IMG/VR virus record: IMGVR_UViG_3300006793_000365
Coordinates: 1-20,701 of that record
Length of the DNA: 20,701 nucleotides
Origin: a virus
Strand: one strand, 5' to 3'
Shown: positions 6,358 to 19,260 of the stretch, piece by piece
Layout of the letters: each line of letters starts with the position of its first letter
How positions within the stretch are numbered: the stretch's first letter is position 1
Notes under the pieces: generated by a model
What the model saw: only the letters and a program-made list of their open reading frames with translations
Database searches by the model: none
Told to the model about the DNA's origin: nothing
Translations under genes and position numbers: made by a program

Positions 6358-8469
6358 CTATAAGTTTGCTTGGAAACCTGCATCTTCGTGTGCAGAGCGT
6401 ACCATATTAACAATCATCTCTTTTCTTTCTGTTATTAACTCATCGACACTATTAGCATCAGTAGCAGTAATTTCAAATGTAATATTAGTAGTACCACCAC
6501 CCTGTAATTGTCCATTATTAACAACTGTACCTGTTCTACCAGGAATCATTAACTCTGGTCCTTTCTCACCAACCATGTAAGGTTTGTTACCTGTTACTGT
6601 ACCACCAAATTGTCTTCCTTGGTACTGTTGGTTTCGAATAGTAGCAACATTTGCCATACCCATTCCAATAACAGCCGCTGCCGCAATAAAGTTATACGGA
6701 GGTGGATAAGAAGCAAGTGCTTTGGTAGCACCAGTGTATGTATTCATTACTGCTTGTGCAATATTAAATGCTTTAGCGGCTTTAAATGCGGCCTTACTAT
6801 GTTGTCCTAATGCAGTAAGTGCTTCAGCGCCTTGTGAAATAGCCCATTCTGTTTTTTCAGTTTGGGTTTTCTTATCAAACTCAGCGTATGTTTCAGCCAT
6901 TTGTTTACTTTCGTTATGGTTGAATCCTTCTTTACGGATACGCTTGTACTGCTCTGCTTGTACAATCTTAGTTTTTCTTTCTTCTGTACGTTGTGCTAAT
7001 CTAACTTCAAAGTCGTAATGTCTAAGTAATGCTTGTGTTTCTTCGTTTAAGTAACCAACTTTATTTGCTAGTCTTGCTTCGTCTAAACGGTCTAGTACCT
7101 CGTTCTTCTGTTCATTAAGTTTTTGACTGAATTCATATATTTCCAACTCAAGAGTTACTGCATAACCTTTTCTTTTTAATAATGCATCGTGTTCATGCTT
7201 TAAAATCTTCTTTTCATTTTCTAACTTCAGGTCAGCATGTGCCTTAGCCTCTCGCAAATCAATTTGTCTATACGCTTCTGTGATTTTCATCTTCTGCGCT
7301 TCTGTTTTTTCAGTAACTACTAATTCAGCGGCACCCAAACGCTCTCTATCTTCTTTTGCTTTTTGTATTGCTAATTTAGGTGATTCAAATCCACCTAAGC
7401 CACTTATAATAGCACTGTCTAACGCTTGTTTGCGCTTAGTCTTTTCGTACCCAATATCTTTATCAATTTGTACTTGATGTTCAGCAAATGCCTTTTTGTG
7501 TAATCCTTTAGCAGTTGCTAACTCTTTTGTAAGTGCATCAATACGTTGTTGTAGTCCAAAGCCACCTCTGCCTGTTATTTTTTCGCGTTTCCTGTACAAC
7601 GCACCTATTTGTTGTTCAAGTGCAATTATTTCAGCAGGTAAATTGGCTAGTTGCTGTGGTGTTGACAATCTACCCATTCGTGTAGTTAAATCATCAGTTG
7701 ATTTAAGGAAATCATTTACAGAAATAGTTGCGCCATCGAACACTTTGGCTAGCCAAAGTAATCCATCACCCACACCCATCTTCTCGTATATAGTAACTGC
7801 TAATTCATCACCTGACATACCTGCGTTGTCCCACGCTTTGGCAACTGTATTTGCTTGTTCAGAGGATAAATCAGCGTACTTTACACCAAGTGCTTTAAGT
7901 AAAGTATCAGTGATTTCTTTAGCACCTTGTGCAGACTTACCGTACTTGGTAATTTCATCCTTAGTAAGTCCCATCTCGTCTTGCAAGACTTTAAATACAG
8001 GAATACCTCTGTCCATTAGTCTGTTTAAATTTTCTAAATTTAAACCACCACTAACAGTTCTAGCAAATAGGTCTGACATTGCAGACAATGTGCCCATCTG
8101 GTCCGAAGTACCTCCAGCAATATCAGCGAACGTTGATAGTTTTTCAGTAGCACCATCAACACCAGCACCTTGCATTTTAACAAACGCATCAGTTAATGCA
8201 TTAACATCAAACTGTGTTGTTTTTGCAATGTCTGATATTTGTTCAAACTTGGCCATGCCTTGGCCACTTGTCATTTTGTTTAAAACAACTTTTGTTTCTT
8301 GAAAACGACCGATTAAACCAGTCATTGAGCCAGCGGCATCTTTTGCACGAGCGCCTAAGTTAATTAAACTATCGAGTTTTACTGCCGCTAAGTCGCGATT
8401 AAGTTTGTTAATTGCGGCTGTTGCTTGTCTAGTATCAGCTCCAATTCTTAAATTTGCATCATTTGCCAT
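6358..8469 (-). CDS. Tail tape measure protein
   Basis: At 703 aa this is the longest protein of the window and lies between the chaperone and Dit genes, as expected. The N terminus (about 1-30, ADTRQATAAINKLNRDLAAV) and the helical region 75-240 match the tape-measure N-terminal domain. Residues about 280-560 form long charged coiled coils. A hydrophobic stretch near 593-612 (FIAAAAVIGMGMANVATI) may enter the host membrane during DNA injection. The C terminus contains GEKGPELMIPG, common to this family. At roughly 0.15 nm per residue the tail would be about 100 nm long (inference). No lytic or peptidase domain is visible. The start lies inside the -1 frame extension of the chaperone gene. 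Confidence 0.9.
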   Translation of the reverse strand: MANDANLRIGADTRQATAAINKLNRDLAAVKLDSLINLGARAKDAAGSMTGLIGRFQETKVVLNKMTSGQGMAKFEQISDIAKTTQFDVNALTDAFVKMQGAGVDGATEKLSTFADIAGGTSDQMGTLSAMSDLFARTVSGGLNLENLNRLMDRGIPVFKVLQDEMGLTKDEITKYGKSAQGAKEITDTLLKALGVKYADLSSEQANTVAKAWDNAGMSGDELAVTIYEKMGVGDGLLWLAKVFDGATISVNDFLKSTDDLTTRMGRLSTPQQLANLPAEIIALEQQIGALYRKREKITGRGGFGLQQRIDALTKELATAKGLHKKAFAEHQVQIDKDIGYEKTKRKQALDSAIISGLGGFESPKLAIQKAKEDRERLGAAELVVTEKTEAQKMKITEAYRQIDLREAKAHADLKLENEKKILKHEHDALLKRKGYAVTLELEIYEFSQKLNEQKNEVLDRLDEARLANKVGYLNEETQALLRHYDFEVRLAQRTEERKTKIVQAEQYKRIRKEGFNHNESKQMAETYAEFDKKTQTEKTEWAISQGAEALTALGQHSKAAFKAAKAFNIAQAVMNTYTGATKALASYPPPYNFIAAAAVIGMGMANVATIRNQQYQGRQFGGTVTGNKPYMVGEKGPELMIPGRTGTVVNNGQLQGGGTTNITFEITATDANSVDELITERKEMIVNMVRSAHEDAGFQANL
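7742..7759. repeat. 18-bp perfect palindrome in the tape measure gene
   Basis: ACTTTGGCTAGCCAAAGT is self-complementary without a spacer. It encodes part of LLWLAKVF in the tape measure. An 8-bp inverted repeat with a 5-base spacer lies just beside it at 7686-7706. Confidence 0.85.
8023..8045. repeat. Inverted repeat with 10-bp arms and 3-base spacer
   Basis: GTTTAAATTT (8023-8032) pairs with AAATTTAAAC (8036-8045). It encodes the partly repeated LNLENLN of the tape measure, so the symmetry may come partly from the protein repeat. A 14-bp perfect palindrome, GTTAATGCATTAAC, lies nearby at 8192-8205. Confidence 0.75.
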
Positions 8470-8961
8470 GTTTCTTAACCGCCTCTTCTTCTAGTTTCTG
8501 CTGATGCTTGAAGTACATCAAGTGCAATTGAATATTAAAATTGGACATTGTTGATATTTCATCGTATGTTTTGTGCAGTTTATCACACAAGAACAATACG
8601 TTCATCAAATCAACATCCTCAATTAGTTTTTTTCAACTTCCTCAATATTAACTTCGCTACTTGCCATTGCATCAGCAATTTTATAAAGTATCTTAGGGTC
8701 TACTTCATTCATAAGCTCTGGCATGTTATTCTTATTAAACATAGGTGTTCCATCTTTGTCTAATGCACGCATAATAATGCCCATTGCAAGTCCTTCTTGC
8801 ATCTTACCTTCATCGTAGTACTTGGTAATCTCTTGTAACTTTGCGAATGTAGTAACAGGTCTAAAATACACTGTTTCATTTAATTCGGGTACTTCAATAC
8901 TTTGTAACTCTTGTGTTAGACATGCGTTGAAGTGTTTTTTTGCTTTGTTTAAGAAACTCAT
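8459..8961 (-). CDS. Predicted frameshift fusion of the tail assembly chaperone (gpGT-like)
   Basis: Reading the 112-codon chaperone to the A AAA AAC heptamer at 8632-8626 and then slipping back one base gives 55 more codons that end at TGA 8461-8459, for a product of about 167 aa. The extension begins LIEDVDLMNVLFLCDKL and ends EEEAVKKHGK. It fills the 153-base gap before the tape measure exactly and overlaps its start by 11 bases. This is the arrangement of lambda G/GT and many siphoviruses, where the rare fusion recruits the tail tube while coating the tape measure. An ATG at 8605 with an upstream GAGGA could instead start the 3' part as a separate 48-aa protein. Confidence 0.75.
8623..8961 (-). 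CDS. Tail assembly chaperone, zero-frame product (gpG-like)
   Basis: The 112-aa helical, acidic protein contains ETVYFRPVTTFAKLQEI, then RALDKDGTPMF at about 66-76, followed by a short helical end. This is the pattern of phage tail assembly chaperones that coat the tape measure before tube polymerisation. It lies directly upstream of the tape measure gene, the fixed place of this family. The start overlaps the upstream gene as ATGA (8958-8961), with CAGGAG about 12 bases before the ATG. The last codons include the slippery heptamer. This zero-frame form should be made in excess over the frameshift fusion. Confidence 0.8.
   Translation of the reverse strand: MSFLNKAKKHFNACLTQELQSIEVPELNETVYFRPVTTFAKLQEITKYYDEGKMQEGLAMGIIMRALDKDGTPMFNKNNMPELMNEVDPKILYKIADAMASSEVNIEEVEKN
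8626..8632 (-). other. Programmed -1 ribosomal frameshift site (A AAA AAC)
   Basis: The minus strand reads GAA AAA AAC TAA in the zero frame, so A AAA AAC fits the X XXY YYZ rule just before the stop. A Shine-Dalgarno-like GAGGAAG (8643-8637) ends four bases upstream of the heptamer, a placement known to stimulate -1 slippage in bacteria. The nearby zero-frame stop could add a pause. Confidence 0.75.
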
Positions 8962-9383: not shown

Positions 9384-9782
9384 TTAAGTCGCAGTGCCTA
9401 ATGTTAAGTCGCCTGAACCTTGCAGTGAAATATCACCAGTTACTAACGAATCAGTACTTGATGAAACTGAAAGTCCGGTAATGATAACATTACCTGACAA
9501 CTTAGGGTCGCCACTGGCACTAGTACTTGGGTATGCTAAAAAAGCAACCTCGGCATCAGTGTTAATAGCAGTGTTTATAGTGCCTTGGTCGGTTGGATTG
9601 TAACTGATTGTTGCAGTTGCAGTCCACTCTTTCAAGCCTGCCATAAATGTTTTACTGTTGTCGCCCATTACAGTTGATTCAACTGTATTAACCGTGTAAT
9701 CAACAGATATATTTTGCAATTGGCCAATTGCAACAGAGTTAACTGTTAGCGTACCTTCTTGACCTGTGTAATGATTTGCCAT
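9384..9782 (-). CDS. Major tail (tube) protein
   Basis: The 132-aa protein is a compact beta protein: GQEGTLTVNSVAIGQLQNIS at the start, VESTVMGDNSKTFMAGLKEW in the middle and LSGNVIITGLSVSSSTDS near the end. This matches the tail tube family of siphoviruses, whose hexamers stack into the tube. The segment around MAGLKEWTATATISY is the usual conserved core. A strong AAGGAG site lies 7-12 bases before the ATG, fitting high expression. Gene order (terminator upstream, chaperone and tape measure downstream) supports the call. The 5' part of the gene holds a 20-bp perfect palindrome and a 19-base near-palindrome. Confidence 0.82.
   Translation of the reverse strand: MANHYTGQEGTLTVNSVAIGQLQNISVDYTVNTVESTVMGDNSKTFMAGLKEWTATATISYNPTDQGTINTAINTDAEVAFLAYPSTSASGDPKLSGNVIITGLSVSSSTDSLVTGDISLQGSGDLTLGTAT
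9714..9733. repeat. 20-bp perfect palindrome early in the tail tube gene
   Basis: The 20 bases starting TTGCAATTGG are their own reverse complement. They encode AIGQLQ about 50 bases after the start codon. A second symmetric element, TACAGTTGA-T-TCAACTGTA, lies 26 bases further into the gene at 9669-9687. Confidence 0.85.
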
Positions 9783-17424: not shown

Positions 17425-19260
17425 TTAGTCTTCATCAAAGAATGTTTCGCCTGTGAACTCTTCTAGTTTACGAATCATTCTTTCCATGTTAACTCTTACA
17501 GTCTTACCTGTGTTCTTGTTAATTGAATAATATTCCCAATCGCCTGCATCATTATGCGGTGATATCTTTGTAACATTACCTGCTTCATCTTGTACATATA
17601 CTTCCGATGAACCTGCATCGTCTTTAGCGTATATGTGTGAACCGTTTGACCTAAGTGATGGGTCACTTGACTTATTCTGTAAAAATATATCATTCAAACG
17701 AGATTGTCCTGCAGTAGTATCTGCTACAAATGCAAGTTCGTATGAAGCGCCGCCACCTCTAGCATGGAAGTGACAAAACTTATCAACATCGTTTGTTCCA
17801 CTACCGCCTTCGCTAAATCCACGAGAACTATATCCATATACTGTGTCAAAAGTAAGAGTAGTTCCACTACCAGCATTAGTTTCAATTGAAGCTGAGTGAG
17901 CCGCTGATTCTGTTATTGTTAAATTACCTGAGCCTGTGGTTTTGGCTGTTAATACATTTTGTGCTCCGTTAGCATTACCTAATGTTGAACTTGACGAACC
18001 TGAATTGTATACAGTTGTAAAGAATGCATTCTGTGGTCCTCTAGACAAATAGCTACTAGTGTTAGTTGAATCCTTTCCATTTAAATCAAGGTCTACTTGT
18101 AAAATGTTTCTCCATCTGTCACTAGAGCTATTACTGTCTGATTCACTACCATCAATTTTAGCATCAACTAGAATTTGATTTGAATAATGTCTTGTTCCAA
18201 ATGTTGATGAGTGGTTTTTGTACAACATAAGGTTTCTTGTGTTATTACCCGGCAATGAATCTACTTCTGATTGATTTGACATCATTGCTATACCTGTGCC
18301 ATTTGCTTCTAAGTACAAATTACCATCTGTTGTGCTTACTGACAATTCAGTGTCATCAACTTCTAAATTACCTAAGTCGGCTCCACCGCCTCCACTGCCT
18401 CCACTTTGTGCAACAATGTGCGTAAGTTTAAAATACTGCGTTGGTACATAGTAACCACTAACACCACGAATATCAACTGTTGTTGATGTTGCTAATGTGA
18501 ACACACCACCAAAAGCATAGATACCTTCATTTTGAGTACCTATCTCATTGTAGCCACCGCCACCGCCACTACTACTAAGTATTGTGCCGTTTGTGTTTGA
18601 ATTAGCCAAAGCAGTATCATAATGTCCATCAACTGCATTAATCACAGTCTGTAAATGTTCAAGCATGTAAGTACCTGCAGGCAATGTAATCCCATAACCC
18701 GACACTGAATAATAACTTGATGGGTCTGTCATGTTGTTGATAGTTCGTCTGTACGGTGCTGTTGATTCACCACCATAGTTGCCACCACTTGTTGAATCAA
18801 CATAAAACACACAGGTTTCACCACCTGTACTACCTGCACTAGGTGTTTCCCATGACAATGAACCTGCTGTTGCGCCTGCTGTTAAGACTTTACCATTGTT
18901 GGTAGTGCTTGTTGCAGGTACATGAAGGTTGCCATCAGTTGTTGGGTGCGTGTAAACAGTATCATTGTCTGTAAATAATGCGCCTGCAGGTACATTCGTT
19001 AGTACCTGTGAATCATCTACTTTAGCATCTAATGCTGTTTGCAAAGTAGATACTTCACTAATGCTATGTGTTGCAGGGTGCGAGTAATTGTTAGCATTTG
19101 CTTCGATAGCACTTAACTTAGCACCATCGCCATCTTGGAATTCATCTTTAATAGCATTGACATTGTCTGCCATTTGCTTAATGTCTGCTCTTGCTGATGC
19201 TGGACTATCTGTACCTGCATCTAAGTTTGTTGTACTAATTGTACCAGTAGGCCAAGTCAT
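17425..19260 (-). CDS. Large tail fibre with N-terminal WPT module
   Basis: The 611-aa protein opens with MTWPT, LDAGTDSPASAR and DIKQMADNVNAI, the module shared with the genes at 900-1322 and 1332-1958. Residues 45-75 look like a short coiled coil (ISEVSTLQTALDAKV). A TVYTHPTTDGNLHVP segment near 106, common in marine phage fibres, is followed by Gly/Ser-rich linkers (SSGGGGG near 230; GGSGGGGADLG near 284) that separate beta domains. The C-terminal segment from about 535 contains IYAKDDAGSSEVYVQDEAG and a final helix MERMIRKLEEFTGE, which may trimerise the shaft. It ends EFTGETFFDED and probably binds a host surface structure. Its start forms TAATG with the upstream stop. Confidence 0.75.
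   Translation of the reverse strand: MTWPTGTISTTNLDAGTDSPASARADIKQMADNVNAIKDEFQDGDGAKLSAIEANANNYSHPATHSISEVSTLQTALDAKVDDSQVLTNVPAGALFTDNDTVYTHPTTDGNLHVPATSTTNNGKVLTAGATAGSLSWETPSAGSTGGETCVFYVDSTSGGNYGGESTAPYRRTINNMTDPSSYYSVSGYGITLPAGTYMLEHLQTVINAVDGHYDTALANSNTNGTILSSSGGGGGYNEIGTQNEGIYAFGGVFTLATSTTVDIRGVSGYYVPTQYFKLTHIVAQSGGSGGGGADLGNLEVDDTELSVSTTDGNLYLEANGTGIAMMSNQSEVDSLPGNNTRNLMLYKNHSSTFGTRHYSNQILVDAKIDGSESDSNSSSDRWRNILQVDLDLNGKDSTNTSSYLSRGPQNAFFTTVYNSGSSSSTLGNANGAQNVLTAKTTGSGNLTITESAAHSASIETNAGSGTTLTFDTVYGYSSRGFSEGGSGTNDVDKFCHFHARGGGASYELAFVADTTAGQSRLNDIFLQNKSSDPSLRSNGSHIYAKDDAGSSEVYVQDEAGNVTKISPHNDAGDWEYYSINKNTGKTVRVNMERMIRKLEEFTGETFFDED

Follow-up and report, generated by a model that had tools for sequence, protein, structure and literature searches.

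Many tailed phages control the assembly of their tails through G–T frameshifting. In lambda gpG/gpGT, a short chaperone encoded between the major tail protein and the tape measure is extended in the −1 frame near its end, using a slippery heptamer with low-level fusion expected (PMC5009743). According to the same review, stimulators seem dispensable for frameshifting in certain tailed phages (PMC5009743), and a reporter shift of 6–7% has been recorded in a tail-chaperone cluster similar to an HK97 protein (PMC3711429). Outside phage tails, Escherichia coli dnaX combines a Shine–Dalgarno (SD)-like element, an A-rich heptamer (A AAA AAG) and a short local hairpin a few nucleotides downstream, its products being two polymerase subunits. 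The insertion sequences IS911 and IS3411 provide a bacterial precedent for stimulatory pairing across tens of nucleotides (PMC5009743); the pairing there takes the form of a three-way junction or an apical-loop/internal-loop pseudoknot.

Here we describe a minus-strand locus in a 20,701-nt stretch of viral DNA (the window), which very probably encodes a lambda-type G/GT tail assembly chaperone pair produced via a −1 frameshift. The likeness to lambda is one of function and layout. The locus differs from lambda G/GT in its A AAA AAC heptamer, which the stop codon follows at once, in its SD-like element and in a downstream stem that covaries in the family. The upstream element, A-rich heptamer and nearby stem recall dnaX; the heptamer itself and the products differ, and the family stem usually closes a loop of ~40–90 nt, in contrast to the local hairpin of dnaX. 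Unlike the junction and pseudoknot of the IS elements, the stem is known here as a predicted helix. Conserved candidate stimulators are evident in the phages studied here, unlike the stimulator-free tailed phages of the review, and the putative cassette of this phage family is a dnaX-like three-part layout, which goes beyond what an earlier note on this DNA had claimed; that note had overlooked the stem. A literature search for a stem at G–T sites found no paper, though an earlier description may exist.

Anatomy of the locus

The G open reading frame (ORF; minus strand, 8961–8623) ends GAA-GTT-GAA-AAA-AAC-TAA, with GAGGAAG (8643–8637) four bases upstream of the heptamer at 8632–8626 (Table 1). 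From CTA 8626 the −1 frame continues for 55 codons to TGA 8461–8459, overlapping the tape-measure ATG (8469–8467) by 11 bases; the +1 frame shuts after one codon (read in locus L001, whose sequence is identical to the window). Re-examination found every coordinate and distance in the earlier note to be correct (ORF, heptamer, GAGGAAG, 55 codons and 11-base overlap). Its proposal that the −1 extension accounts for the gap between the G stop and the tape-measure ATG also held, both the gap size of 153 bases and the open frame being confirmed.

Table 1 Features of the G/T locus and its neighbours in the window
Feature	Position	Strand	Remarks
gpG-type tail assembly chaperone ORF, zero-frame product	8623..8961	(-)	112 aa; phrog_344, AlphaFold model
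SD-like upstream element GAGGAAG	8637..8643	(-)	GAGG core 8643-8640, 7 nt from heptamer
Slippery heptamer A AAA AAC	8626..8632	(-)	In-frame counterpart in 50/53 clusters
Zero-frame stop TAA, abutting the heptamer	8623..8625	(-)	Abutting stop in 44/50 heptamer clusters
T-type extension, −1 frame	8459..8626	(-)	55 codons + TGA; missed in ordinary gene calling
5′ arm of predicted downstream stem, GGATGTTG	8611..8618	(-)	7 nt after heptamer
3′ arm of predicted downstream stem, CAATGTCC	8543..8550	(-)	Fold prediction
Inner helix, 5′ side TTGATG	8603..8608	(-)	MFE structure; pairs with 8556-8551
Inner helix, 3′ side TATCAA	8551..8556	(-)	MFE structure
Tape measure protein ORF, 703 aa, directly downstream	6358..8469	(-)	TMP_3 E 6.8e-10; phrog_3336 E 1.2e-15
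Major tail protein, expected partner of T domain	9384..9782	(-)	phrog_10528 E 3e-10

G is a tail assembly chaperone by profile and predicted fold

G belongs to the tail-assembly-chaperone family, judged both by profile and by predicted fold. The window protein matches the tail assembly chaperone family phrog_344 with an E value of 2.5e-5, a family also matched by 48 of 52 G relatives; its match to Pfam PF16459 falls below cut-off. An AlphaFold model (pLDDT 89, built from 48 sequences) finds its best solved-structure match in the HK97 tail assembly chaperone gp13 (2ob9; Foldseek E 4.6e-3, probability 1.00). Superposition with VIA-align extends over 101 residues (Z 11.3, rmsd 3.0), the runner-up reaching Z 6.8. 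G is hence predicted to share the HK97 tail-chaperone fold, with 12% sequence identity and the same role in gene order. A sequence-profile search of solved structures gave no meaningful match. The genes run tail terminator, major tail protein, neck-type protein, G, T and tape measure. The placement of G between the major tail protein gene and the tape measure gene, seen in DSL-LC06 as well, is that of lambda-type systems.

The slip site is conserved across 53 clusters

Relatives were collected from public contigs using patterns inside G, away from the heptamer, and grouped into 53 G-gene clusters at 80% amino-acid identity; these share ancestry, so counts over clusters are not independent events. 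An in-frame slippery heptamer lies at the end of G in 50 of the 53 (45 AAAAAAC, four GGGAAAC and one AAAAAAG). The zero-frame stop sits directly behind it in 44 of these 50, giving a heptamer-to-stop distance of zero in most clusters, as against means of 26 and 36 nt in the two data sets of PRFect (PMC10885494). The asparagine codon at the slip site is always AAC; gene bodies favour AAT (102 AAC, 170 AAT). The alignment of homologues for which the earlier note had called shows the heptamer and −1 extension to be kept, with coding-type substitutions, down to ~25–46% G identity. Of 50 clusters, 31 have an SD-like tetramer or longer match 5–22 nt ahead of the heptamer, where synonymous shuffling predicts 11.2 ± 2.6. 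The element is kept beyond protein need in the family, and the window has GAGGAAG.

Loss of the heptamer, which the earlier note had named as evidence against its reading, does occur, rarely: the canonical form is absent from three of the 53 clusters (L075, L086 and L007), and all three retain the T domain. L075 and L086 retain the −1 extension and the stem, with A AAG instead of the heptamer. The local sequence is GCA AAG GAA TAG (L075, ~630–640; L086, ~2336–2345), the stem is strong in both, and a slip on the single codon A AAG is possible. In L007, the T domain is in the +1 frame, at A AAA AGC. This contig (~3220–3450; MH327491.1, marine virus AG-345-A17) carries the domain after TTG AAA AGC TAA, which suggests either that the shift has changed direction or that sequencing of amplified single-cell DNA left an indel. 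Brevundimonas phage vB_BpoS-MaInes (L205, ~1488–1611) has an unannotated T-like domain in the +1 frame behind a chaperone-sized ORF, making it another candidate +1 G–T junction. A DNA-level search of the window tail region against 50,697 phage records gave no match, and among bacterial genome contigs no relative was confirmed.

A predicted stem is anchored to the heptamer

Inverted repeats beginning just after the heptamer were spotted while reading the relatives, and then tested. Among 47 gapless sequences, pairing in register x+y=93 is 63% Watson–Crick, against 24% for the average register and 35% for the next best. Synonymous shuffling yields 44% (maximum 49%) and the stricter null, column-wise synonymous permutation, 56% (maximum 59%). 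An alignment of 26 sequences (A3), picked after the helix had been seen, has 93.7% of cells paired and 21 double changes, a result reached by 0 of 500 shuffles, with slid-partner controls at most 40% paired; the unselected alignment A2 has 70.8% of cells paired and 59 double changes.

The predicted helix covaries in the main clade, and its 3′ arm is placed differently between clades. A second group uses register 61; CRP-811, CRP-821 and L057 use register 114; HTVC112P and R4C have a local hairpin; and L199, L201 and L202 place a 3′ arm CGTCCTC at +52 to +58. A single family-wide register was ruled out, at least three being in use. A common stem was also sought in the HTVC026P clade, and none was found. 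When 5′ arm positions were scored in turn against synonymous shuffles, mean z was 2.1 at +5 and 1.3 at +8; it was 0.2–0.6 over the rest of the extension and ranged from −0.04 to 0.32 across the G gene, with 0–0.3 at most positions outside the +5 to +8 peak. In 39 of 50 clusters the best helix has its start within this +5 to +8 interval. Where the stop lies 3–60 nt past the heptamer (L028, L064, L072, L169, L043, L052 and L195), the stem still lies at +6 to +8 relative to the heptamer. It is thus the heptamer, and not the stop codon, to which the stem keeps its distance, and this ties the stem to slipping and not to termination or reinitiation.

We considered whether the helix could be a by-product of codon or protein constraint, or a terminator or a means of hiding an SD sequence, with no part in stimulating a frameshift. 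Such an origin is unlikely: although both arms lie within coding sequence and conserved residues supply part of the main-clade pairing (the synonymous null is already at 44%), the observed pairing exceeds the synonymous nulls, and the 5′ position is the same across at least three registers with differing 3′ arms. The main-clade 5′ arm region does hold AGGAGG, but several arms lack any SD sequence; the helix is not followed by a U run, and it moves with the heptamer and not with the stop.

A stem 5–9 nt downstream with covariation is supported at the level of the family as a whole; in the clade of the window, the arms hardly vary and no covariation of them was found. The predicted window stem pairs 8618–8611 with 8550–8543, with an inner helix of 8608–8603 and 8556–8551, and its start 7 nt after the heptamer falls within the family-wide peak of helix starts (5–8 nt). 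The whole fold is better than dinucleotide shuffles (z −2.27) and, over 92 nt, than synonymous shuffles (z −2.8); taken by itself, the perfect 8-bp helix does not exceed the synonymous shuffles (z 0.27), and L002/L003 show no fold excess over shuffles (z about −0.2). An Rfam search of the window returned none. A stem in the window is likely, but it is weaker than those of its relatives.

The extension is coding in the −1 frame

T extensions are homologous in the −1 frame across all 52 aligned clusters, with a common motif LGKSxEEVMxxSxLE..W. A Pfam search of the T extension gave no match, and its PHROGs links are weak (phrog_9001 for the window, E 0.021; phrog_337, tail protein, for 15 of 51 relatives). 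The second ORF is open through the heptamer and under coding selection: comparison of the window clade with L002 in the −1 frame counts 10 synonymous changes over 30.8 sites and 6 nonsynonymous over 131.2 sites. Evidence from extensions with no start codon comes from the relatives, eight clusters lacking ATG, GTG and TTG throughout the first 16 extension codons and 17 clusters lacking ATG in the first 17. The HTVC026P clade, in which the slip site is invariant, has no ATG in the first 25 extension codons, and over these codons dN/dS is 0.29 in the −1 frame (63 distinct sequences), compared with 0.92 (0 frame) and 1.63 for the extension DNA in the other two frames. In this clade, codons ahead of the first possible start show purifying selection solely in the −1 frame.

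These data bear on the possibility of a separate small gene, the 3′ part of the locus being translated on its own from TTG 8608 or ATG 8605 by reinitiation after TAA 8625, aided by GAGG 8620–8617. In-frame TTG and ATG codons do occur in the window clade, with GAGG 8 and 11 nt upstream, and an ATG at extension codon 9–11 is common among other clusters; internal initiation there nevertheless cannot be the general mechanism, because there are relatives with no nearby start and selection in the −1 frame acts ahead of the starts. The heptamer codons are moreover fixed beyond protein need, the stem stays with the heptamer even with the stop 48–60 nt away, and both window start codons fall inside the predicted inner helix, making a separate gene very improbable. 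The earlier note had held that translation from ATG 8605 only would speak against a fusion, and the relatives with no ATG, GTG or TTG near the extension start run counter to that outcome.

A fusion could also arise with no ribosomal slipping if polymerase slippage on the A run gave mRNAs of altered length. The window has seven A, but many relatives have only six (GCAAAAAAC) and in four clusters the heptamer is GGGAAAC, free of any long run, which identifies the heptamer in frame, and not the A run, as the conserved thing. Transcriptional slippage would need neither a helix at ribosomal spacing nor a conserved SD-like element and is, for the family, a remote prospect. A point against ribosomal slipping is that, in E. 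coli, A AAA AAC shifts less readily than A AAA AAG (PMC5009743).

The 80-member HTVC026P clade stands apart: its shift site has nine A (for example, L006 3330–3345), and no conserved stem follows. It possibly takes a different route to the same fusion, perhaps transcriptional slippage, and is the one place where polymerase slippage stays a fair alternative.

An ordinary gene end with a randomly open frame, or a sequencing artefact in error-prone AT-rich A runs, can be dismissed, the arrangement being repeated in dozens of independently assembled contigs and isolates, and an open frame of 55 codons alone arising in 1.3% of composition-matched first-order Markov sequences. In-frame AAAAAAC occurs a single time among the 3,809 codons of 13 tail and head ORFs of the window. 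Relatives aside, the open −1 frame, the rare heptamer and its placement at the very end of G are far beyond chance.

Proposed mechanism

The reading of the locus as a gpG/gpGT frameshift, first made in the earlier note, gains support from the 50 of 53 heptamers, the homology and selection in the −1 frame and the chaperone profile and fold. It draws on anatomy, conservation, −1-frame coding selection and family-level stem covariation as read from sequence, with the predicted fold match also counted. From these we infer slippage and its efficiency, stimulation by the stem and SD-like element, and the functions of the proteins. Most ribosomes would end at TAA 8625, releasing gpG, while a minority would slip back one base on A AAA AAC, with tRNA-Lys and tRNA-Asn on AAA AAC, and read the −1 frame for 55 codons to yield gpGT. 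Two stimulators probably raise slippage, the SD-like GAGG 7 nt upstream and the RNA stem ~7 nt downstream. In this scheme, gpG would form a coat on the tape measure protein, and recruitment of the major tail protein would fall to the T tail of gpGT.

More broadly, the gpG:gpGT ratio in these environmental tailed phages, a group that includes isolates on SAR11 and roseobacters, is probably set by a three-part stimulated cassette whose 5′ arm is pinned at 5–8 nt and whose 3′ arm has been relocated. The 3′ arm occupies different places in the T coding region between clades, and the same device would therefore have been rebuilt several times. Conservation of the stimulators would point to tight selection on the chaperone ratio, and the family supplies a series of naturally occurring stem variants with which to probe how −1 efficiency depends on stem position.

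Annotation of the T half and other observations

The earlier note had predicted that ordinary gene calling misses the extension, and the T half is absent as a G extension in every GenBank isolate examined. The annotation of Sinorhizobium phi3LM21 has a separate hypothetical ORF at the T half. In HTVC112P (L194 1906–2052) and HTVC111P (L198 1906–2058), GenBank places an antisense ‘hypothetical protein’ over the T extension, probably a false gene. With the T half missing or overlain in the annotations of isolates, gene callers therefore routinely lose the T protein.

Elsewhere in the window, three minus-strand ORFs (900–1322, 1332–1958 and 17425–19260), the first two adjoining each other, have a common N-terminal motif (M[AT]WPT... 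LDA..DS... R..K...D..N) and differ in their remainders. They are apparently tail-fibre-like paralogues with a common anchor.
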